64,000 nucleotides of DNA from Myxococcota bacterium (GTDB lineage Bacteria; Myxococcota; JAJVIH01): positions 1-64,000 of the forward strand of contig JAJVIH010000035.1 in the NCBI GenBank assembly GCA_022072125.1. The letters run 5' to 3'. This document shows positions 31,020 to 42,271 of the stretch, piece after piece. The notes under the pieces were generated by a model, which saw only the letters and a list, made by a program, of their open reading frames with translations, was not told the DNA's origin and ran no database searches. Made by a program: the position numbers and the translations under genes. Numbering within the stretch: the first letter of the stretch is position 1; each line of letters starts with the position of its first letter.

Positions 31020-32717
31020 ATGCGGGGACAATCCGGACAAGTGTTGTTGGTGGCGACCGGCGCCTTGGCCATCGCCATATCCGCGGGGGCGGCGTTGCTG
31101 ATTTCCTCCTGCGGGGATAGCGCCAGCGATATAACGTTATTCCCGGATTCCGCAGGCGAGATCGTTCCGAACAGCGCGGGCGGAAGCGACCGGTCGGCGA
31201 CGGGCGGCTCCCGTGATGCTGGAACCCCGGCGGAGCCTCCGCCCCCGGAAACCGAAAACAATTATCTGCTCGCCGCGCCCGTCAGCAGCCGCAACTATGT
31301 CTATGTGCTGAATACCAGCCTGGGAACCATCGCGCGGATAGATCCCAAAACCCGGGAGGTCCGCAGCATCCGCGCGGGCCGGCAACCCATCGCCCTCGCC
31401 ACCCTGGAAGGGCAGGATACCGCCGTGGTGCTGACCCAGGGCGATCCCGCCCTGGCCCTGGTGATGTCCAACCCGGAAGCGGATACCGTCCGTTCGGTCC
31501 GGCTGGCCGAGCCCTATGACTCCCTGACCGTGTCGCCCGGGAGGCAATACGCCATCGCCTGGTTCAACGAAGGACGCGGGCGTCCTTTCGACGCCAACCG
31601 CCGCACCGCGCCCAAGGTCGCCATTGTGGACCTCACCCTGTTGCAGGCGGGCGAAACCGACGCCTCCAAAGTGGTTGTGGAGCGTTCGGTGGGGTTTCGC
31701 ATGACCGATATCCTGTTTGACCAGAATGGCTCCCGGGCTTACCTGGTCTCCAAGGCGGAAATCGCGGTGATGACCCTCGACAAACTGCGGGACGAGCCGC
31801 TGCTGCCGCGCCGCCGCATAGACGATGTGGAATTTGAAGACGTGGAGCGCCGGGAATTCGCCATCACCCCCGATGGCTCCTTCATCCTCGCCCGGTCTGA
31901 CAACGCCAATCGCCTGTTGTGGGTGGACTGGACGTCCGCCACCCGCGGTTCGCTCACCCTGCCTTCGGCGGCGACCGATCTGGATTTGTCCCCGGACGGC
32001 AGGCGCGCGCTGGTGGTGCTCCGCGAAACCAACCAGGTGGGGCTGGTGGATGTGCCGGCGGGCCTGCGGGATGAATCGAAACTCCGGCTGCTGAGCACCG
32101 GGGGCTCGTTTGCGGGACAGGCGGTTCTCAATCCCGCGCGCAACCAGGCGGCTCTCTACACCACCGTGGTTTACCGCGAGGAATTGCTGCTGCTGGATCT
32201 GGATACCGCGGCCATCGTCAAACTGGATAGTTCATCGGGTCTGGACAAGGCGATTGCATCGGTGGGGTACGCGCCCGGCGGCGAATCGCTGGTGATTATC
32301 CATCGCGCCGCCAAACCGGGCGAGAGCCCCGCTGTTTCGGACCTGGAGCGGCGCACCGACCAGGCGCAAGGATATTCGCTGGTGGCGTTGGATGAAGGGG
32401 TCGTTCGCCTGTTTGAAACGCCCGTGGCTCCGGGGGCCATCGCGTTTGACCCCTCCGCTTCCTGGGCTGGCGTGGTGCTGTACGGCGGCCAGCAGGATCA
32501 GCGCATCAACGAAGTTCACCTGCTGGATCTGCGCCGGTTGATCAAGGAGGCGTCGCATCCCATGCCTTCGCAACCGGAGTACCTGGGCGCATTGCCGGGC
32601 GGCGAATGGCTCTATGTCGCCCAGAAGCATCCGTTGGGAAGGATTTCCTTCATCCCGCTGGGAGGAGGACAACCGGTCACCATCACCGGATACGAAATCA
32701 ACGCGGAAGCGGAGTGA
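31020..32717 (+). CDS. Beta-propeller-like lipoprotein A
   Basis: The ATG follows GGAGG; 565 residues with a lipoprotein signal ending ISSC (Cys31). A Ser/Gly/Pro/Glu-rich linker to about residue 80 follows. The body has propeller-like repeats: SRNYVYVLNTSLGTIARID, VRSIRAGRQPIALATLEG, AEPYDSLTVSPGRQYAIAWF, AATDLDLSPDGRRALVVLR. It ends GALPGGEWLYVAQKHPLGR. About seven blade-like units. The next gene is a close paralog over its full length, so these arose by duplication. Role unknown; probably periplasmic or surface exposed. First gene of a seven-gene exported-protein cluster. Confidence 0.78.
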   Translation: MRGQSGQVLLVATGALAIAISAGAALLISSCGDSASDITLFPDSAGEIVPNSAGGSDRSATGGSRDAGTPAEPPPPETENNYLLAAPVSSRNYVYVLNTSLGTIARIDPKTREVRSIRAGRQPIALATLEGQDTAVVLTQGDPALALVMSNPEADTVRSVRLAEPYDSLTVSPGRQYAIAWFNEGRGRPFDANRRTAPKVAIVDLTLLQAGETDASKVVVERSVGFRMTDILFDQNGSRAYLVSKAEIAVMTLDKLRDEPLLPRRRIDDVEFEDVERREFAITPDGSFILARSDNANRLLWVDWTSATRGSLTLPSAATDLDLSPDGRRALVVLRETNQVGLVDVPAGLRDESKLRLLSTGGSFAGQAVLNPARNQAALYTTVVYREELLLLDLDTAAIVKLDSSSGLDKAIASVGYAPGGESLVIIHRAAKPGESPAVSDLERRTDQAQGYSLVALDEGVVRLFETPVAPGAIAFDPSASWAGVVLYGGQQDQRINEVHLLDLRRLIKEASHPMPSQPEYLGALPGGEWLYVAQKHPLGRISFIPLGGGQPVTITGYEINAEAE

Positions 32718-32728
32718 TGGAGGGCGTC

Positions 32729-34429
32729 ATGGACGAAGGAAGGTTGATTCAAACCTGTTATGCCGTCGCGATTCTGCTGGGAGTTTTCGCCTGTGCGGGA
32801 TGCACCAGCGGCTCCTCGGTAAGCCCTGCCGGCGTCACGAACAAACCGAAATCGGCGAATGCAGCGGGTAATATCTTTGATAATGATGAAGCCCCCAGAC
32901 CCAGAGGAGATCAGGGAAGCGGAGCTTCGCCGCCGGACGCCGGGCAGGCTCCGCCGCCGCCCGAACAGGAAATCATCCCCATCCGGTATCAGCGCCCCGC
33001 CACCACGCGCAATTACGTTTATGTCGCCAACGAAACGCTGGGAAAGGTAATCCGTATTGATCCGGAGACCCGGCAGGTGGCGTCCATTCCAGTGGGCGGC
33101 AAGCCCGGCGAAGCGGTCGCCATTGAAGGCGAGGACGCGGCGGCGGTGCTGAACCGGGGGGACGGATCGTTGTCGCTGATCATCAGTTCTCCGGAGACCG
33201 ACGTGGTCCATACGGTGAGCCTGGGCGAACCTTACGAAAACCTGGCGCTTTCTCCGGGCGGACAATACGCGGTGGCCTGGTTTGACCGGTCCAAGCCGGA
33301 GAAATCCGCCGATGGCCAATCCGCCAGCAGCATCGCCGCCAACCAAATTGCGGTGGTGAACCTGTCCCGCCTGCGCCAGGGGGGCGCCAACCGCAAGGAA
33401 GTGGTGGAGACCCGCACGGTTGGATTTCGCGCCACCAATGTCTTTTTCAACAAGGAAGGGACGCGCGCCTTTGTGGTCGCCAAAAGCGAGGTGTCGGTGG
33501 CGGATCTGGGCAACCTGGCCGCCCAGCCGTTGCTGCCCCGTCTGCGCATCAACGACAAGTCATTCGAGGAAGTCGAACGCCGGGAGGTGCTGGCGGACGC
33601 CGGCGGGCGATACCTGTACCTGCGCAGTCTGGACGCCGATCGTTTGATCGCCCTGGACATGGTGAACAACCAGAAACTGGAGTTGAAGCTCCCTTCGGCG
33701 CCCAGTGATCTGGATTTGTCCCCCAACGGCGCGATGGCGGTTGCGGTGCTGCGCGGCGACAGCAGCGTGGCGGTTTTCCCGGTTCCTGGGGTGTTCACGG
33801 ATCCCTCCAGCATCAGGATCATCAAGTTGGGGAGCGCCGCGGCTGGTTCGGCGGTGATGTCGCCCGTTCGCAACGAGGCGTTGCTCTTCACCAACGCCGA
33901 ATACCGGGAACAGCTATCCACCGTGAATCTGGACAAGGGCGAGGTCGTCACCTTCGACAGCCGCCATGGACTGGACAAGGCCGTCCTCGCGGCGGAGTAC
34001 GCGCCGGATGGCTCCTCCGCCCTGATTCTCCATGCCTACCTGGCGGCTTCTCCCCCATTTACCTCGGTTGAGGAGCAGGTGGACGCAACGCCCGGCTACT
34101 CCCTGTTCAACCTGCAGGCGGGGGTATTCGCCCTGGAGCGTCTGACCAGCGACGTGAAAAGCTGGGTGTTTTCTCCGGATGGCGCGCGGCTGGCGTTGTT
34201 GATCCCGTCCAAGGATGCTTTTGAAGTCCAGCTAGCCGATATGCGGTCGCTGCTCAAGGTCTCGTCGGTCCGGTTCCAGTCCAATCCCGAATTCATGGGA
34301 GCCCTGCCAGGTTCGCGCTGGGTGTACATCACCCACAAGCATCCGGCGGGACGCATCACCTTCATGCATTTTGACACGGGCGAGGTTCGCACCATCACGG
34401 GCTTCGATCTCAACAGCAACGCCGATTGA
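32729..34429 (+). CDS. Beta-propeller-like lipoprotein B, paralog of A
   Basis: ATG 32729 follows GGAGGG; 566 residues. The lipobox ends ACAGC (Cys25). The body aligns with lipoprotein A throughout: TRNYVYVANETLGKVIRID, GEPYENLALSPGGQYAVAWF, ASDLDLSPNGAMAVAVLR-like, and the ending GALPGSRWVYITHKHPAGR. Similarity is clear but far from identity (perhaps half the residues in aligned stretches, judged by eye), so the duplication is old and both copies kept. It starts 11 bases after gene A. Confidence 0.78.
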   Translation: MDEGRLIQTCYAVAILLGVFACAGCTSGSSVSPAGVTNKPKSANAAGNIFDNDEAPRPRGDQGSGASPPDAGQAPPPPEQEIIPIRYQRPATTRNYVYVANETLGKVIRIDPETRQVASIPVGGKPGEAVAIEGEDAAAVLNRGDGSLSLIISSPETDVVHTVSLGEPYENLALSPGGQYAVAWFDRSKPEKSADGQSASSIAANQIAVVNLSRLRQGGANRKEVVETRTVGFRATNVFFNKEGTRAFVVAKSEVSVADLGNLAAQPLLPRLRINDKSFEEVERREVLADAGGRYLYLRSLDADRLIALDMVNNQKLELKLPSAPSDLDLSPNGAMAVAVLRGDSSVAVFPVPGVFTDPSSIRIIKLGSAAAGSAVMSPVRNEALLFTNAEYREQLSTVNLDKGEVVTFDSRHGLDKAVLAAEYAPDGSSALILHAYLAASPPFTSVEEQVDATPGYSLFNLQAGVFALERLTSDVKSWVFSPDGARLALLIPSKDAFEVQLADMRSLLKVSSVRFQSNPEFMGALPGSRWVYITHKHPAGRITFMHFDTGEVRTITGFDLNSNAD

Positions 34430-34442
34430 GGAGGTGGGGAAC

Positions 34443-35990
34443 GTGAAGCAAGGCATTCTGTGGCTGATGGCCGCCGCCGCTCTGACGGCCTGCGGCGACC
34501 GGGACGAGCGCTATGAACGTCCCATGAATTCCGATGGTCCGCACAGCATCGGCGGGGCCATTCATTTTCTGGCGCGTGGACCAGGACGGTTGATCCGCAT
34601 AGACGCGGACAAGAAGACCATCTCCCATTACGAAGTCGGGAAGGATCCCGGCCTGATCACCGCCAATCAGGCGGGCAAAACCCTGTTCGTCATCGATCAG
34701 GACCGGAAACAGCTTCATGTGTTCAATGAAGCGGGCGACCAGAAGAAGATCGCCCTGAAGGCCGCATACACCCGGATTTCGTTCACCCCTTCCAGCCAGC
34801 AGGTGATCTGCTCGTTCACCCCAGGCCAGCAGGCGGACAGCGCTTCCTCGCTGGGTGCGATCAACATCAACCAGATTGAAATCGTGAATCTGGCGAACGC
34901 CTCCACCATGGTGGAAACCCTGGTGTCCGGGGCCCTGGGAGCGGAACGGTTTGTGTTTTCCAACAACAATCCGGATGGCGTGGGTCCCTCCGCCGCCGCC
35001 GCCGTGACCACCGCCGGGTTGACTTTCTTCGATTTCGCCGACCCCAAGGTGCGCCGCGTATCCATCCCCTTGAGCCTGCCCGATGGTTCGCGCATCCAGC
35101 CCCAGGAAGTCTGGTTCTCCGCCGACAACAAATACGTCTTCATCCGGGCCGCGTCGTGGGATGAAATCATCACCCTGACGTTGAATAAGGTTCCGCTGGC
35201 CAACGACCCGTCATTTTCCTCGACCATTCAGGTCAACATCAATTTCATGTCCTCGCGGTCGCGCGGCCTGACCGCCCTGCGTCCCCTGGATGGGGGCAGG
35301 GTGCTGGCGGCCTACTCCGGCAGCAGCGAAGTGGTCATCTACGACGCCGGCAACGCCGGGGCGGATCCGGTGATCTACGGCGGAATCAATGGTCCCGTTT
35401 CCTGGATTGAACCGCTCTCCGATGGCGCCCAGACCTACTATTTCCTGCTGGCGGCGGGGAGGCAGAAGGCCTATCTGCTGAATGCCGCCAACGGCGCCTT
35501 CGACGCGATGAACCTGCAGCCCCTGTCCAGCCAGATTCCGTCTCCCAATGGCCGGACCATCGTTCTCATCGGCGCATCCGGATTGATCCGGCTGGTCAAG
35601 GCCGAGACCCGTACCGGGCAGACCGGCTCCGCCACGCCGCGTTTGCGGGAGATTCCCATCCAGGTCAATGCGGCCCAGAGCGGATTTGTATTCGGAAACA
35701 ATGGCGATGCGCTGTTCGGCCTGTTCCGCAAGAACAACGAAAACTTCTCCCGCCTGCTGACGGTGGACCTCAACTCGGGCGCCCCCGGCGAGGCCGGACT
35801 GGATGAAATCTACGAGTCCCTGGGAGTGACTCCCTCGGGACATATCCACATGCGGCTGAAGCGGGACAAGGGGACGCTGGCGGTGATGCCGCCGGGAGAA
35901 CTGACGAAGGACCGCATCTGGAAAGTGGGCGGCTACCTGTACCATGGGGTGTTTGATCCGGCGGAGCCGGAAGGGGAGGAGCCGAAATGA
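34443..35990 (+). CDS. Beta-propeller-like lipoprotein C
   Basis: GTG 34443 follows GGAGGTGG and gives 515 residues; the open frame extends upstream into gene B but lacks a site. Lipobox LTAC (Cys17). The sequence is a distant relative of A and B: IHFLARGPGRLIRIDADKK parallels their LGTIARIDPKTR region, followed by repeated GxxxYxx and DLNSGAPGE-like blade ends. It lies 13 bases after gene B and overlaps the next gene by four bases. Function unknown. Confidence 0.75.
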   Translation: MKQGILWLMAAAALTACGDRDERYERPMNSDGPHSIGGAIHFLARGPGRLIRIDADKKTISHYEVGKDPGLITANQAGKTLFVIDQDRKQLHVFNEAGDQKKIALKAAYTRISFTPSSQQVICSFTPGQQADSASSLGAININQIEIVNLANASTMVETLVSGALGAERFVFSNNNPDGVGPSAAAAVTTAGLTFFDFADPKVRRVSIPLSLPDGSRIQPQEVWFSADNKYVFIRAASWDEIITLTLNKVPLANDPSFSSTIQVNINFMSSRSRGLTALRPLDGGRVLAAYSGSSEVVIYDAGNAGADPVIYGGINGPVSWIEPLSDGAQTYYFLLAAGRQKAYLLNAANGAFDAMNLQPLSSQIPSPNGRTIVLIGASGLIRLVKAETRTGQTGSATPRLREIPIQVNAAQSGFVFGNNGDALFGLFRKNNENFSRLLTVDLNSGAPGEAGLDEIYESLGVTPSGHIHMRLKRDKGTLAVMPPGELTKDRIWKVGGYLYHGVFDPAEPEGEEPK

Positions 35991-36688
35991 GCAGGCTGTT
36001 TGTCGCGCTGGCGGGCCTGGTTCTGCTGCTGTCGCCGATCCAGGCCGCCGCGGATGCGGGCAATCTGAAAATTGGAACCAGCACGGTCTGGCTGACCGGC
36101 AAGGATTTCGACGTCATCTCCAAGGACGACGCCACGACGTCGTTTGATCTCACGGGTGGTTTTGCGCTGCTGGATGATCTCTTTCTGGAAATCACCTGGG
36201 AGCGTTTCCGCAAGGGCGCCAATATCCACGACGCCCACTTCAATCAGCTCACTCTCAACCAGTGGAGCCTGAGCGCCCGTTACCGCTATCAGATTCTCGG
36301 GTGGCTGGCGGTGCAGGGCCGGGCGGGAGGCAGCTTCGGCTATGGCCAGTACCGCATCCGCGAATACGAAGAGGACGATGAAAACGTGTACTCCGCCAAT
36401 TCCTGGACCTTCGGCGGGCTGGCCCTGGCCGGCGTCGAGTTTTGCCTGCCCCGGGAGTACATGCAGGAAATCGGCGCCCGATCCACGGAGGACAACGTAT
36501 TCACCTTCGCATTGGTCATCGAGGCGGGAGGGGTGTTCCGTTCGCCGCTGTCTTTCGACACCACGCCGCAGGCGCCTGATCCCGTCAACGAAAAAAAGAC
36601 CGCCCGGCTGGAGACCGTTCCAGTCAACATGGGTTCCCTCGGCCTCACGGGACCCGCCCTGCGCGTGGGTGTGTTGATGTACTGGTGA
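35987..36688 (+). CDS. Small outer-membrane beta-barrel-like protein
   Basis: 233 residues. Signal peptide MSRLFVALAGLVLLLSPIQAAA. The mature 210 residues alternate hydrophobic and polar residues in short strands (FLEITWERFRKG, LSARYRYQILGWLAVQGRAG, FALVIEAGGVFRSP) and end PALRVGVLMYW, an aromatic C-terminus suited to Bam recognition. Around 8 strands are likely, as in OmpA/OmpX-like proteins, too few for a wide channel. It overlaps gene C (ATGA). Possible surface or anchor component. Confidence 0.7.
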   Translation: MSRLFVALAGLVLLLSPIQAAADAGNLKIGTSTVWLTGKDFDVISKDDATTSFDLTGGFALLDDLFLEITWERFRKGANIHDAHFNQLTLNQWSLSARYRYQILGWLAVQGRAGGSFGYGQYRIREYEEDDENVYSANSWTFGGLALAGVEFCLPREYMQEIGARSTEDNVFTFALVIEAGGVFRSPLSFDTTPQAPDPVNEKKTARLETVPVNMGSLGLTGPALRVGVLMYW

Positions 36689-36898
36689 CCGGCGCGGGGT
36701 TGGTTCATCCGGCTGAACGGTGGCTTGTTGGGAATTGTCCGGTGCTCCCCCTGACAGGAGAAATAACCGGCTGGCCGGGATGGATGCCCATGGGTACGGG
36801 ATTTCCGGTTTGATATCAGGCCGCTTTACAAGCATGGGCGGGCGGGCTAGAAATTGTCCGTTTTCCCCGTTGGCGTTTCCCCCGGCGAATCCGGAACC
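36689..36898 (+). other. 210-base gap in the exported-protein cluster
   Basis: No terminator with T-run, no good promoter and no supported small ORF. The longest open frame (from ATG 36781) lacks a ribosome binding site. Confidence 0.3.
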
Positions 36899-38005
36899 AT
36901 GATGCAAAGCCCTGATCTTATTCCGCCTGTACGCCAGCGCCTGAATCGCGTCTTGGTGCTGTCCGCCTGCCTGTTCGCCGTGAGCGTGTCTGGCGGTTGC
37001 TCCAAAAAAAACAGCGGTCCCGATGGAGCCGCCCCCGAAAAGACGGGGCTGACCCCGCTGACGGCGCCGTCCAGGGTGGAAGCGCCGCCGCCGCCGCAAC
37101 CCAAGGCGCGCACCACGCCCTGTCTGGACGCCAGTTCCTTCAAAAACCTCAATCTCGCCAAACTTCCCCCCGATATGCTCAAGGAGTTCGGGTGCATCGC
37201 CGCCGATGAACTCTGTCCCTGCGATTGTCCGGCCAGCCTGGGCGTGTGCCTGGCCAATCCGGGGATGTGCAACCGCGCCCACCGCCTGGGCCGCTTCATC
37301 AATGTCCTGCTGGAGAACAAGGCCGCCGGCGATCAGCTCAAGGAACACCTGACCAAGGGTTTTTTTCCCACCTACGAGTCCAAACAGGCGGATCTGGAAC
37401 TGGACAACGTGGCCTTCACCGGCCCGGCGGCCGCCGATGTGACCATCGTTGAATTTCTGGATTTCCAGTGTCCGTACTGCCGGTTGACCTTTCCCGCCAT
37501 CAAGATGGCGGCGGAACAGATGAAGGGGAGAAAAGTCAAGGTAGTGCTGAAACATTTCCCCCTCTCCAGCCATCCTTTTTCGGACCTGTTCGCCCGGTCG
37601 TTTGAAGCCGCCCGCGAACAAAAGAAGGAATGGCAAATGGCTGAACTCCTGTTTGCCAACCAGGACGCCGCTTCACCGGAATTGCCCGTGCTCATCGCCC
37701 AGAAGCTGGGGATGAACATGGACAAGTTCAAGTCGGATTTGCAGCCGGATGGCCAGCCGGCCGCGCGCGTGGAGCGCAACAAGCTGGAGGCGCGGCGCTT
37801 GAACCTGGATTCCACCCCCAGTATTTTCATCAACAATTATCCGTTCAAAATCGGGGCGTCGCCGGACTTCATCCAGGATCGCGCCGAAGACATTCTGGAA
37901 GGCGACCGGAAATGCAATGAGGCCGCCCGCAAGATTGAACCGCCGGTGATCGGCGGGGCGGCTCCAACGGCGGGGGCGACCCCCGCTGGCGGGGTAGGTC
38001 CCTGA
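36899..38005 (+). CDS. DsbA-like thioredoxin-fold lipoprotein with CPYC
   Basis: 368 residues; the frame opens at 36854, but tandem ATGs at 36899 and 36902 give a signal ending VSGGC (Cys34). A Pro-rich linker and a Cys-rich segment follow (CIAADELCPCDCPASLGVC, about 105-124, then MCNRAHRLG). The thioredoxin-like domain is at about 170-345 with catalytic CPYC at 191-194 in FLDFQCPYCRLTFPAI, the DsbA/ DsbC active-site form, and the cis-Pro segment LDSTPSIFINN. Likely a periplasmic thiol oxidase/isomerase or thiol reductase, perhaps serving the Cys-containing cytochromes encoded next to it. 210 bases after the barrel gene. Confidence 0.85.
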   Translation: MMQSPDLIPPVRQRLNRVLVLSACLFAVSVSGGCSKKNSGPDGAAPEKTGLTPLTAPSRVEAPPPPQPKARTTPCLDASSFKNLNLAKLPPDMLKEFGCIAADELCPCDCPASLGVCLANPGMCNRAHRLGRFINVLLENKAAGDQLKEHLTKGFFPTYESKQADLELDNVAFTGPAAADVTIVEFLDFQCPYCRLTFPAIKMAAEQMKGRKVKVVLKHFPLSSHPFSDLFARSFEAAREQKKEWQMAELLFANQDAASPELPVLIAQKLGMNMDKFKSDLQPDGQPAARVERNKLEARRLNLDSTPSIFINNYPFKIGASPDFIQDRAEDILEGDRKCNEAARKIEPPVIGGAAPTAGATPAGGVGP

Positions 38006-38034
38006 CCGGCGCCGGATTCTGGGAGAGCAAACGC

Positions 38035-39234
38035 ATGAAATCTCAACCCTTCCGGATGAGCCTCGCCGCCCTGGTTGTGGCGCTGGCCGCCTCCATCGCC
38101 TGGGCGCAGGCGGACAAACCCGTGGTGGTTCCGGGAACCGTTCCCGCGGGCGGCCCCGCAAAGCCGGTGGAGCCCGTCAAACCGGCTGAACCGGCCGCCC
38201 CAGCCGTTCCAGCCGCGCCCGCGGCGCCCGCCCAGCCCGCGACGGCGGCCCCGGCGCAACCCGCCGCTCCTGCTTCGCCTGCTCCGGCGGCGGACGCCAA
38301 AAAGGATGAGGGCAAGAAAGAAGACAAGCAGGAGCCCCCCGCGCCCAAACCCCAAACCCGCACGGTTCGCGCCGCCGGCAAGGGTTGGGAAGTGATCCTC
38401 AAGGTGAAACCCGGCATTCCTGATCCAGGCAAGGTGGCGCTTGTCGATGTCCAGGCCTCCCGTTTGGTCAATCCGCCGGATCCGTTTTATGGGCCGCGCG
38501 TGCCGGTCACCAGCCGCCTGGTCGCAACTCCCGCGCACGAAAATTTCAAGGGCGACGCCCGCCGTTACGAAGTGCGGCCTTCCGGCGATGCAGGCAATTA
38601 CGCCTTCCACTTCACCCCGCCGCGTGAAGGCTGGTTCAAAATCCGTTTCCAGTCCACCTTCCGCAATGAAGAGATGGATATCACCGCGCGTATCCCCGTG
38701 GGCATGTGGCCCCTGCCCAAGGACGACTCCGTGGAGATCGAGGGCGGAAAAAAGAAAAAGGAAGAAGCTCCGGTGATGCCCGCTGGCCGCGGACCGGTGG
38801 TTCCGCAAGGCTTCAAGGCGGGGGTCAGCACCGCCTCGCCCGCGTCCGCTGGCGCCGGGGATGAAGATGCGGTTCACGAGGCGATGGAAGAGATCGGCGA
38901 GGCCTGGGCGGGGTTGTCTGGTCAGGTTTTCGCCGCCGCTTCCCCGGTGCAAAGCCGTAGCGAGGCGGACGCGGACAATCTGCTCAAGGTCATCCGTGAA
39001 TTGAAGGCCAAGGGGCCCATGCCGATGGGGAGCGCCGCCGACGCCATGATGGCGGAAATGGAGACCCGCGCCGCCGAATTGCAGGGGTTCGTCAAGGCGA
39101 AGAAGTACAAGGAAGTCCGTGACGTGATGAACGCCATGTCCGCGGGACTCTGCTTGCGGTGCCATCTGGTGTACCACATGGATGTGATGCAGTCGGCGGA
39201 CAACTATCCAGCGTCGCTGGGAACCTTGAAATGA
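38035..39234 (+). CDS. Exported Pro/Ala-rich protein with C-terminal cytochrome c'-like haem motif
   Basis: 399 residues; ATG follows GGGAGAG. Signal peptide ends AWA-QAD. Residues 28-100 are a Pro/Ala/Lys spacer, a wall-spanning-type linker. Residues about 110-225 look like a beta-sandwich (YAFHFTPPREGWFKIRFQS). The last 120 residues are helical and end in CLRCH (Cys373, Cys376, His377), near the C-terminus, where cytochromes c' carry their haem site. It is probably a fused carbohydrate- or protein-interaction domain plus haem module. 29 bases after the DsbA-like gene and 14 before another cytochrome gene. Confidence 0.72.
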   Translation: MKSQPFRMSLAALVVALAASIAWAQADKPVVVPGTVPAGGPAKPVEPVKPAEPAAPAVPAAPAAPAQPATAAPAQPAAPASPAPAADAKKDEGKKEDKQEPPAPKPQTRTVRAAGKGWEVILKVKPGIPDPGKVALVDVQASRLVNPPDPFYGPRVPVTSRLVATPAHENFKGDARRYEVRPSGDAGNYAFHFTPPREGWFKIRFQSTFRNEEMDITARIPVGMWPLPKDDSVEIEGGKKKKEEAPVMPAGRGPVVPQGFKAGVSTASPASAGAGDEDAVHEAMEEIGEAWAGLSGQVFAAASPVQSRSEADADNLLKVIRELKAKGPMPMGSAADAMMAEMETRAAELQGFVKAKKYKEVRDVMNAMSAGLCLRCHLVYHMDVMQSADNYPASLGTLK

Positions 39235-39248
39235 TGGAGCGGAAGCCA

Positions 39249-40196
39249 ATGAAACGCGGATTCTGGATCAGTTTCGGTATTGCGGCCTTTCTCTTCGCCG
39301 GGGTCCAGGCGCTGGCGCAGGATGACGAAGGCGAAGCCCAGCCGGAGAAGCAGAAGGGGAGTGAACTGCCCGCGGCGCGCGGGGATGCGGTCAACGGCGA
39401 GAAGCTCTTCCGCATCCACTGCGCCGCCTGTCACGGCTTCACCGGCCGTGGGGACGGCGCGGCCGCGAAGCATCTGGCGGTTCCGGTGATCAACCTGCAT
39501 GACGGCGGGCTGATGAACCGCCGCACCCCCACCGAACTGGCGCAGATCATCGAACGCGGGGCGATTTCGGTCAAAGGCTCCCGCGCCATGCCCAGCTTCA
39601 AGGAAGCCCTGTCCCCGCTGGAACGCTGGGATATCGTGGCGTATCTCGAAACCCTGTACCCGAAAATCCAGGATTTCTTCCCGGAGGCGGGCCGTTTCAC
39701 CGTCAAGAAATTCGACATGGATGACACCGGCAAGAGCCGGATCAAGAAACTGCTGGAATCGGATTTGTCCCCGGCGGAGTCCTCGCTGGTGCTGATCACC
39801 GTGTTCAAGGGCGGATCGGAGCGCGGCGAGCCGCGCAATATCCCCTATGTTCCCGCGGAACTGGACAACCTGAAGAAGGAAGACAAACTGGGATACCTGG
39901 CGTTCTTTGACATTCCTGGACCGAAGGGTTCCATGTCGGTGGGAATGGCGATTGCGCCCAACGGAACCATCCTCAAGCTGTCCGGCACCGATGCGCTGGG
40001 CGTCAACGCTGCGGACAACCGCATGCTGAAAGAGTTTGAGGGGCAGGGTAAACGCGGTTCCAAACCCGAGCCCTTCAAGGCGCGGACCAAACCCGCGAAT
40101 GTCTACGCGGCGGGGGTTTTTCGCGGGTGGGTCCGCATGATCGAGGCTGTGTATGGCTTCGAGCGCGACGAAAAGGATCGCACCTGGGCGGATTGA
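39249..40196 (+). CDS. Exported monohaem cytochrome c
   Basis: ATG 39249 (after GGAAG) gives 315 residues; signal ends ALA-QDD. The class I haem site is CAACH (Cys58, Cys61, His62) in GEKLFRIHCAACHGFTGRGDG, and MPSFKEALSPLERWDIVAYL downstream supplies the likely axial Met. Residues about 140-315 are a second domain without haem motif that I cannot identify. Electron carrier in the periplasm, partner of the preceding haem protein. Last gene of the cluster. Confidence 0.88.
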   Translation: MKRGFWISFGIAAFLFAGVQALAQDDEGEAQPEKQKGSELPAARGDAVNGEKLFRIHCAACHGFTGRGDGAAAKHLAVPVINLHDGGLMNRRTPTELAQIIERGAISVKGSRAMPSFKEALSPLERWDIVAYLETLYPKIQDFFPEAGRFTVKKFDMDDTGKSRIKKLLESDLSPAESSLVLITVFKGGSERGEPRNIPYVPAELDNLKKEDKLGYLAFFDIPGPKGSMSVGMAIAPNGTILKLSGTDALGVNAADNRMLKEFEGQGKRGSKPEPFKARTKPANVYAAGVFRGWVRMIEAVYGFERDEKDRTWAD

Positions 40197-40519: not shown

Positions 40520-42271
40520 ATGCCGAATCTGATCGCCATGTCGTTCGAGGGCGAATTGGCCCCATCGTTTGAATTGCGTTGTCTGAAGCCGGGCAGGACC
40601 CCGCCGGATGGTTGGGGAATCGGCTTTTATCCCGGCGGCGAACCTTCCGCCTCGGTGCTGAAGGAGCCCGCGCCGCCCCACGGCAGCATCCGCAGCCAGC
40701 TTGTGGATGCGTGGGAGCATCTGGCGTCCTCGATTTTTGTCATGCACATGCGCCGCGCCCGCTGGGGCAGCATGAGCGACGCCAACACCCAGCCGTTCTG
40801 CCGGAGTTGGGGACGCCGCGACTGGCTGATGGCCCACAGCGGCAGCCTGGCCCGCAAGCTGGAAATTCCGCAAGATGCATTGTTCGAGCCGGTCGGCTCC
40901 ACCGACTCCGAGGCGATTTTCTGCGCGCTGCTCAACCGGTTTCACGCCCATGGCTGGAAGCGCCTGCGCGACGCCGATTTGCTGACGGTCCACGACTGGC
41001 TGCACCAGTTGAACGAATTGGGAGACATGTCTCTGGTGATGACCGACGGCGGCGATGTGCTGGTTTACGCGGACAAACACCGCGAAAGCCAGTTGTACAC
41101 CTGGCGGGTGTTGCCGCCCTATGACAGCCTGGCGGTGGGCAACAACGACTTGATGGCGGATTTTTCCCGGCGCGGCGTGAAGAGCAGAAAGGGGGTCATT
41201 GTCTGTTCCGAAAAGCTCAAGGCCGAACAGGGGCCGGAATCCCAGTGGAAGCCCCTGGCGCCCGGACGCATGATGTTAATCCGGCAGGGCGCCATCCGCG
41301 CGGAAATACAGGCGCCCGACGGCGCCGGAAGGGATCGGGTTGTCGTGAACAGCCATGCCGCTCCCCGCAGGCCCTCGACCATGCGGCCGAAAACCCTCTC
41401 CGTGGTTCACCGGACAGTGTACAAATACGAGGAACCGGTGCAGCGCAGCAGGCACAAATTCCGCCTGAGACCGTTGCATGATCCCTTGCAGAATCTCTTG
41501 CAGCATTCATTGTCGCTGTCCACTCCCGGGCAGACCACGGAATTTCAGGATGTCTTCGGCAACCATGTGCATCGCCTGCATGTGGAAGAACCATTCAGCG
41601 AAATGGTCATCGAGGCGAAGTCCAGGGTGCGGGTGCTGGACACCGATCCGCTCAATTTTAATCCGCTGCACGTGCGCTCGACCATCCCGCTGGTCTGGAT
41701 GCCGTGGCAGCGCCACATGTTGCAGCCTTACCTGCTGCCGCCCGAATTGCCCGAAACCGAGTTGGCCGAACTGACCGAATACGCCATGAGTTTCGTCGAG
41801 CGGAACTCTTACGATCTGCTGGACACCCTGCTCGACATGAATGACAGCATCTTCAAGGAATACAAATACAGCCAGGGGTCCACCAACCTGTACACGACCC
41901 CGTTTGATGTCTACGTCAACCGCCGCGGAGTCTGTCAGGACTTCGCCAACCTGTTCATTTGCCTGGCCCGCCTGTTGAGCGTGCCCGCGCGGTATGTCTG
42001 CGGGTATATCTACGTGGGGCCGCGCAACGAGAACCAGGTGCAGTCGGAGGCCAGCCATGCCTGGGTGCAGGTTTATCTGCCCGAGGCCGGATGGAAGGGC
42101 TTTGATCCCACCAATGGCTGCATGACCCAGACCGATCACATTCGCGTCGCCGTGGGCCGCAATTACGTGGACGCCACCCCGACATCCGGCACCATCTACC
42201 AGGGAGGAAAGGGTGAGTCCCTCTCGGTGGATGTGCGCGTGGAAGCGCTTCCTGAAGCTGGAGAAACATGA
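40520..42271 (+). CDS. Class II glutamine-amidotransferase-like domain (no nucleophile Cys) fused to transglutaminase
   Basis: 583 residues; start fixed by GGAAGGATT before ATG 40520. Residues 1-265 match the YafJ/EgtC class II amidotransferase fold: DGWGIGFY (30-37), HMRRARWG (76-83), HSGSL (106-110), GSTDSE (126-131). In this family the chain starts Met-Cys, Cys being the catalytic nucleophile; here it starts MPNLIAMSFEG with Pro at position 2. Residues about 293-400 match the transglutaminase N-terminal region (VVHRTVYKYEEPVQRSRHKF), followed by a catalytic domain with Cys472 (RRGVCQDFANLF), His513 (ASHAWVQVYLP) and Asp529 (FDPTNG). Only the transglutaminase or protease half looks active. 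No signal peptide. Overlaps tsaC by four bases. Confidence 0.85.
   Translation: MPNLIAMSFEGELAPSFELRCLKPGRTPPDGWGIGFYPGGEPSASVLKEPAPPHGSIRSQLVDAWEHLASSIFVMHMRRARWGSMSDANTQPFCRSWGRRDWLMAHSGSLARKLEIPQDALFEPVGSTDSEAIFCALLNRFHAHGWKRLRDADLLTVHDWLHQLNELGDMSLVMTDGGDVLVYADKHRESQLYTWRVLPPYDSLAVGNNDLMADFSRRGVKSRKGVIVCSEKLKAEQGPESQWKPLAPGRMMLIRQGAIRAEIQAPDGAGRDRVVVNSHAAPRRPSTMRPKTLSVVHRTVYKYEEPVQRSRHKFRLRPLHDPLQNLLQHSLSLSTPGQTTEFQDVFGNHVHRLHVEEPFSEMVIEAKSRVRVLDTDPLNFNPLHVRSTIPLVWMPWQRHMLQPYLLPPELPETELAELTEYAMSFVERNSYDLLDTLLDMNDSIFKEYKYSQGSTNLYTTPFDVYVNRRGVCQDFANLFICLARLLSVPARYVCGYIYVGPRNENQVQSEASHAWVQVYLPEAGWKGFDPTNGCMTQTDHIRVAVGRNYVDATPTSGTIYQGGKGESLSVDVRVEALPEAGET

Follow-up and report, generated by a model that had tools for sequence, protein, structure and literature searches.

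Several described envelope systems share parts with the locus analysed here. The iron uptake systems encoded by fetMP-fetABCDEF/P19 in Campylobacter and UPEC are among the closest: the C. jejuni fetMP-fetABCDEF cluster includes the thioredoxins FetE and FetF (PMC10783030), FMN-binding or thioredoxin-like genes occur in P19 clusters elsewhere (PMC8238504), and electron supply or removal by thioredoxins or FMN-binding proteins has been proposed for P19 clusters. Extracytosolic redox systems flavinylated by ApbE carry the flavinylation motif [ST]GA[ST] (PMC8238504). At the level of single proteins, the nearest counterparts are the FMN-binding folds of RnfG/NqrC, class II cytochrome c (cytochrome c', PF01322; four-helix bundle, C-terminal CXXCH), the DsbA/BdbD thiol oxidoreductases (thioredoxin fold, CxxC, cis-Pro) and the YVTN/surface-layer propeller proteins (1l0q).

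Here, we describe a block of seven genes in a 64,000-nucleotide stretch from a Myxococcota bacterium (GCA_022072125.1, contig JAJVIH010000035.1, positions 1 to 64,000; hereafter the window), and find that it is two independent Myxococcota modules, ABCD and EFG, which are neighbours in the window genome. As an explanation of the whole, a surface complex formed by ABCD next to a dithiol-centred redox module formed by EFG is the best we can offer, a plausible account to which we nevertheless commit with reserve. As far as literature searches show, both modules were previously unnamed, and these searches likewise returned no named system matching either of them, in agreement with the first-pass annotation of this DNA. 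Two gene sets of exported proteins only, conserved in much of Myxococcota, are thereby separated and given testable anatomies.

The seven open reading frames are intact, without internal stops, and all lie on the + strand at 31020-40196 (Table 1), as previously annotated. Signal peptides and lipoboxes assigned by eye place lipobox-type cysteines on A, B, C and E and signal peptides on D, F and G, none of the seven looking cytoplasmic, so that the annotated export of every member holds. Junctions are tight within module 1 (A and B overlap at TGATG, B and C are 13 nt apart, C and D overlap at ATGA) and within module 2 (29 nt between E and F; 14 nt between F and G, or an overlap with the alternative G start). 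The gap between D and E is the exact point at which comparative genomics divides the block; no terminator-like site was found in it, so that the two modules could be cotranscribed in the window genome. Among the window proteins, Pfam recognizes DSBA/Thioredoxin_4 in E, cytochrome c in G and, weakly, an OmpA barrel in D, with no matches in A, B, C or F; family profiles and folds confirmed the annotated parts list of propeller lipoproteins, a barrel, a DsbA-like lipoprotein and two cytochromes.

Table 1. Positions of the seven genes and of the gap between the two modules in the window
Feature	Position	Strand	Description
Gene A, module 1	31020..32717	+	565-aa lipoprotein, YVTN/surface-layer-type beta-propeller
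Gene B, module 1	32717..34429	+	Tandem paralogue of A, ~40% identity
Gene C, module 1	34443..35990	+	515-aa second propeller-type lipoprotein, GTG start
Gene D, module 1	35987..36688	+	233-aa small outer-membrane beta-barrel, motif F[DE]hhS.DD
Inter-module gap	36689..36898	.	210 nt, between D and E
Gene E, module 2	36899..38005	+	Lipoprotein: Cys-rich domain CPCDCP...C...C, then DsbA/Thioredoxin_4 with CPYC
Gene F, module 2	38035..39234	+	Ala/Pro-rich linker, beta-sandwich, C-terminal cytochrome c'-type bundle (CLRCH)
Gene G, module 2	39249..40196 (start alternatively 39234)	+	Class I cytochrome c (CAACH), then FMN-binding-type fold

The division rests on 195 Myxococcota genomes in which full-length A and the G domain were counted. 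Full-length A occurs in 31/195, G in 45/195 and both in 13/195, a co-occurrence somewhat above expectation (odds ratio 3; p 0.01 without correction for phylogeny). F and G have relatives that adjoin each other, and relatives of A, C and D adjoin elsewhere; conservation in dozens of genomes rules out chance. Among the 13 genomes with both modules, A and G adjoin in the window genome only: in a single-contig genome (G094) A and G lie at 1.109 Mb and 0.479 Mb, respectively, with about 630 kb between them, and in the remaining 11 the modules are on different contigs. Because the modules were never seen adjacent in the 12 other two-module genomes, their adjacency is a local feature of the window genome. 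The single envelope machine proposed in the first-pass annotation thus did not hold up: gene order is conserved within each module, but the seven-gene set is syntenic in no relative. A GTDB-wide scan by one narrow peptide pattern returned named records that were all Deltaproteobacteria/Myxococcota MAGs, one of them labelled Bdellovibrio.

Module 1 combines propeller lipoproteins with a small barrel. The profile of the A/B family matches the YVTN-type propeller 1l0q (E 1.2e-18), the match of C is weak (5c2v_B, E 4e-4), and OMP_b-brl was found in 7/10 members of the D family; no Pfam family was found for the full-length propeller proteins. Propeller repeats link A and B, and weakly C, to the YVTN/surface-layer proteins, from which A-C differ in being lipoproteins of the envelope whose fixed operon includes a small barrel. 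The C-terminal end of the A family carries a conserved QxHPxGRISF...TG[FY]EhN segment. A Cys-rich N-terminal segment, present in most other A members, is missing from window A and B, and the duplication of A that gave B was seen in the window genome only. A search for a further conserved gene at the A-C-D loci found none common to them. Most likely, lipoproteins and barrel form a complex that serves in surface display or binding, with ABCD as an outer-membrane or surface module in which the propeller lipoproteins A, B and C would be made together with the OmpA-like barrel D.

Module 2 unites thiol, heme and flavin-type folds. E has the thioredoxin fold, CxxC and cis-Pro of a DsbA-like thiol oxidoreductase, CxxC and cis-Pro being kept in 26/26, and differs from DsbA/BdbD in that window E is a lipoprotein with an extra N-terminal Cys-rich domain, co-encoded with F and G. 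Compared with CcmH, this N-terminal domain gave no Pfam match and an hhalign probability of 47 locally and 3 globally, and its Cys pattern differs from the LRCxxC of CcmH. AlphaFold predicts F with a pLDDT of 69 overall and about 90 over most of the beta-domain, as a beta-sandwich (residues 106-224) whose fold most resembles those of CrdA and P19/FetP/FtrA, plus a four-helix bundle. The C terminus matches cytochrome c' (4cx9, E 1e-5; PF01322 in 7/12 members) and has the bundle and terminal C..CH of that class; unlike cytochrome c', it is fused behind a beta-sandwich, and it is missing or heme-less in several lineages. G (pLDDT 84) is predicted to combine a class I cytochrome c with a second, C-terminal domain (residues ~141-312) whose best Foldseek matches are the FMN-binding folds of RnfG/NqrC (prob 0.96-1.00). 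It departs from RnfG/NqrC in its fusion to cytochrome c and its position outside any Rnf/Nqr operon, and none of the readable FMN-type domains carries [ST]GA[ST], which rules out a flavinylated G of the ApbE type. As E-values of the F and G fold matches are modest (~1e-3), we name folds and not functions.

Of the 44 loci, 26 have E immediately before F and 14 do not, the other 4 being interrupted by a contig end or not long enough to decide, and F and G are adjacent or fused wherever both are readable. Fusion into one protein occurs in 8 loci (L025, L026, L030, L033, L039, L112, L114, L115), and most of the fusions carry no heme motif. CXXCH is missing from G in 16/44 loci, a few of these truncated, and 21 loci have an F with a heme-bearing c' bundle. 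Most heme-less G proteins retain a residual match to the cytochrome profile, which points to loss of heme rather than gain, and on the G tree a single change accounts for the split between heme and no heme, so that the difference counts as one event and multiple independent losses are ruled out. Loss of heme through loss of cytochrome c maturation is likewise ruled out, since PF01578 (cytochrome c maturation/assembly) is present in 29/30 EFG carriers, heme-less ones included. One deep clade has a cytochrome without a heme site, yet the fold and the operon persist. In L023 and L024 the c' bundle of F is kept with LRGH in place of CxxCH at its heme site, and the heme site of G is kept.

We propose an extracytoplasmic redox role for EFG, a module in which the dithiol of the DsbA-type lipoprotein E would form the conserved core. 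In heme-bearing lineages, including the window genome, F and G may dock with E or with its substrate, and electrons would pass from the thiol centre of E via F/G into the cytochrome pool of the periplasm; where heme is missing, the F/G folds would retain a docking or substrate-binding role alone. An invariant E dithiol together with dispensable hemes argues for a thiol-centred module, and the 14 loci in which E does not adjoin F-G count against the mechanism. VKOR is missing in 9/11 genomes with linked E and a heme-bearing G and present in 6/6 genomes with unlinked E and in 10/13 heme-less genomes, an association that is not significant and comprises no more than 2-3 independent pairs; with so few pairs, we rejected this anti-correlation as proof for a relay. 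Because the lineages are related, the independent VKOR comparisons are few and the comparison of disulfide re-oxidation partners covered VKOR alone, we regard a dithiol-centred module in which F and G of the heme-bearing lineages accept electrons or pass them on as a tentative reading, possible but well short of established. A dithiol-to-heme relay, or the replacement of such a relay, lends itself to direct testing, also in a relative whose genome is closed.

The invariance of the dithiol would also suit a dedicated disulfide or folding factor for specific envelope proteins, with F and G as substrate-binding scaffolds and heme transfer as an accessory function, and so would the dispensability of the F/G heme sites in one deep clade and the missing flavinylation motif in the FMN-like domain of every G. 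Hemes are, however, kept widely across the phylum, in many cases in F and G together, and this wide retention argues that they matter in those lineages; nor does any conserved substrate gene travel with EFG. We consider such a folding factor somewhat unlikely.

EFG may instead act on metal. Iron or copper could be bound by the P19/CrdA-type domain of F, with E and G supplying or removing electrons, and the fold of the F beta-domain, the fet and P19 precedents and the MacB-type permeases upstream in the loci of one family (f4) are consistent with this. Given the FMN-binding and thioredoxin genes of P19 and fet clusters, the resemblance is worth stating: both sets pair a P19-type fold (here F) with a thioredoxin-fold protein (here the lipoprotein E), and some P19 clusters include FMN-binding domains (PMC8238504). 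The MacB neighbours are, however, limited to that family, and Ig-like folds are common to many non-metal proteins. The FTR1 permease (PF03239) is absent from the window genome and from 25/30 EFG carriers, no ABC transporter is conserved, a FetA-type DUF2318/YHS protein was not seen with EFG, and EFG adds cytochrome c and c' domains. Columns conserved in at least 80% of 42 F sequences include one His only, H192 (34/42), the only well-conserved possible metal ligand, and its position is taken by Thr in those F-G fusions that were inspected. Membership in the FetMP/P19 iron uptake system is ruled out by the missing FTR1 and by a P19 metal-ligand set that, judged by sequence columns, is not conserved, and metal handling in the wider sense we judge to be unlikely.

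It is more doubtful still that EFG is a heme-based replacement for DsbB/VKOR in VKOR-less Myxococcota, in which E would be re-oxidized directly by the co-encoded cytochromes and the hemes would have been shed in the clade that mostly has VKOR. Least probable by far is a joint envelope machine of all seven genes, for example for extracellular electron transfer across D: one strand, short gaps, export of every product, the D-E gap in which no terminator was found and the mild co-occurrence of the modules speak for it, but synteny has already largely refuted it, with the modules not adjacent in the 12 other two-module genomes and most genomes having one module alone; D is, moreover, a 233-aa OmpA-like barrel, and multiheme cytochromes are absent. 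A porin-cytochrome (Pcc/Mtr) conduit is ruled out by the single CXXCH in each of F and G and the small size of D, and a core role in extracellular electron transfer is weakened by there being two mono-heme sites only, that of G missing from 16/44 loci in which the operon persists.

A divergent gene of an FHA/GGDEF family lies just upstream of EFG in about 11 loci (L025-L028, L031, L032, L039, L106, L109, L114, L115), hinting at signalling control of the operon; the window is without it. Conserved downstream neighbours, TruD-like and DUF4388-like as called by eye, gave no functional clue. Unlinked E-like proteins in family f4 have degenerate Cys domains, and their loci have a conserved neighbourhood, which also gave no functional clue. 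MacA/MacB/TolC-type genes are directly upstream of F-G in L018-L021 and L034, all of this family. Within the window, a single open reading frame at 40523-42268 (+) encodes a class II glutamine amidotransferase (GATase_4) fused to a transglutaminase-like protein of bacterial type, and elsewhere in the window genome (G000:C41:6215-8662) four DsbA-type domains are arranged in tandem in one or two proteins.
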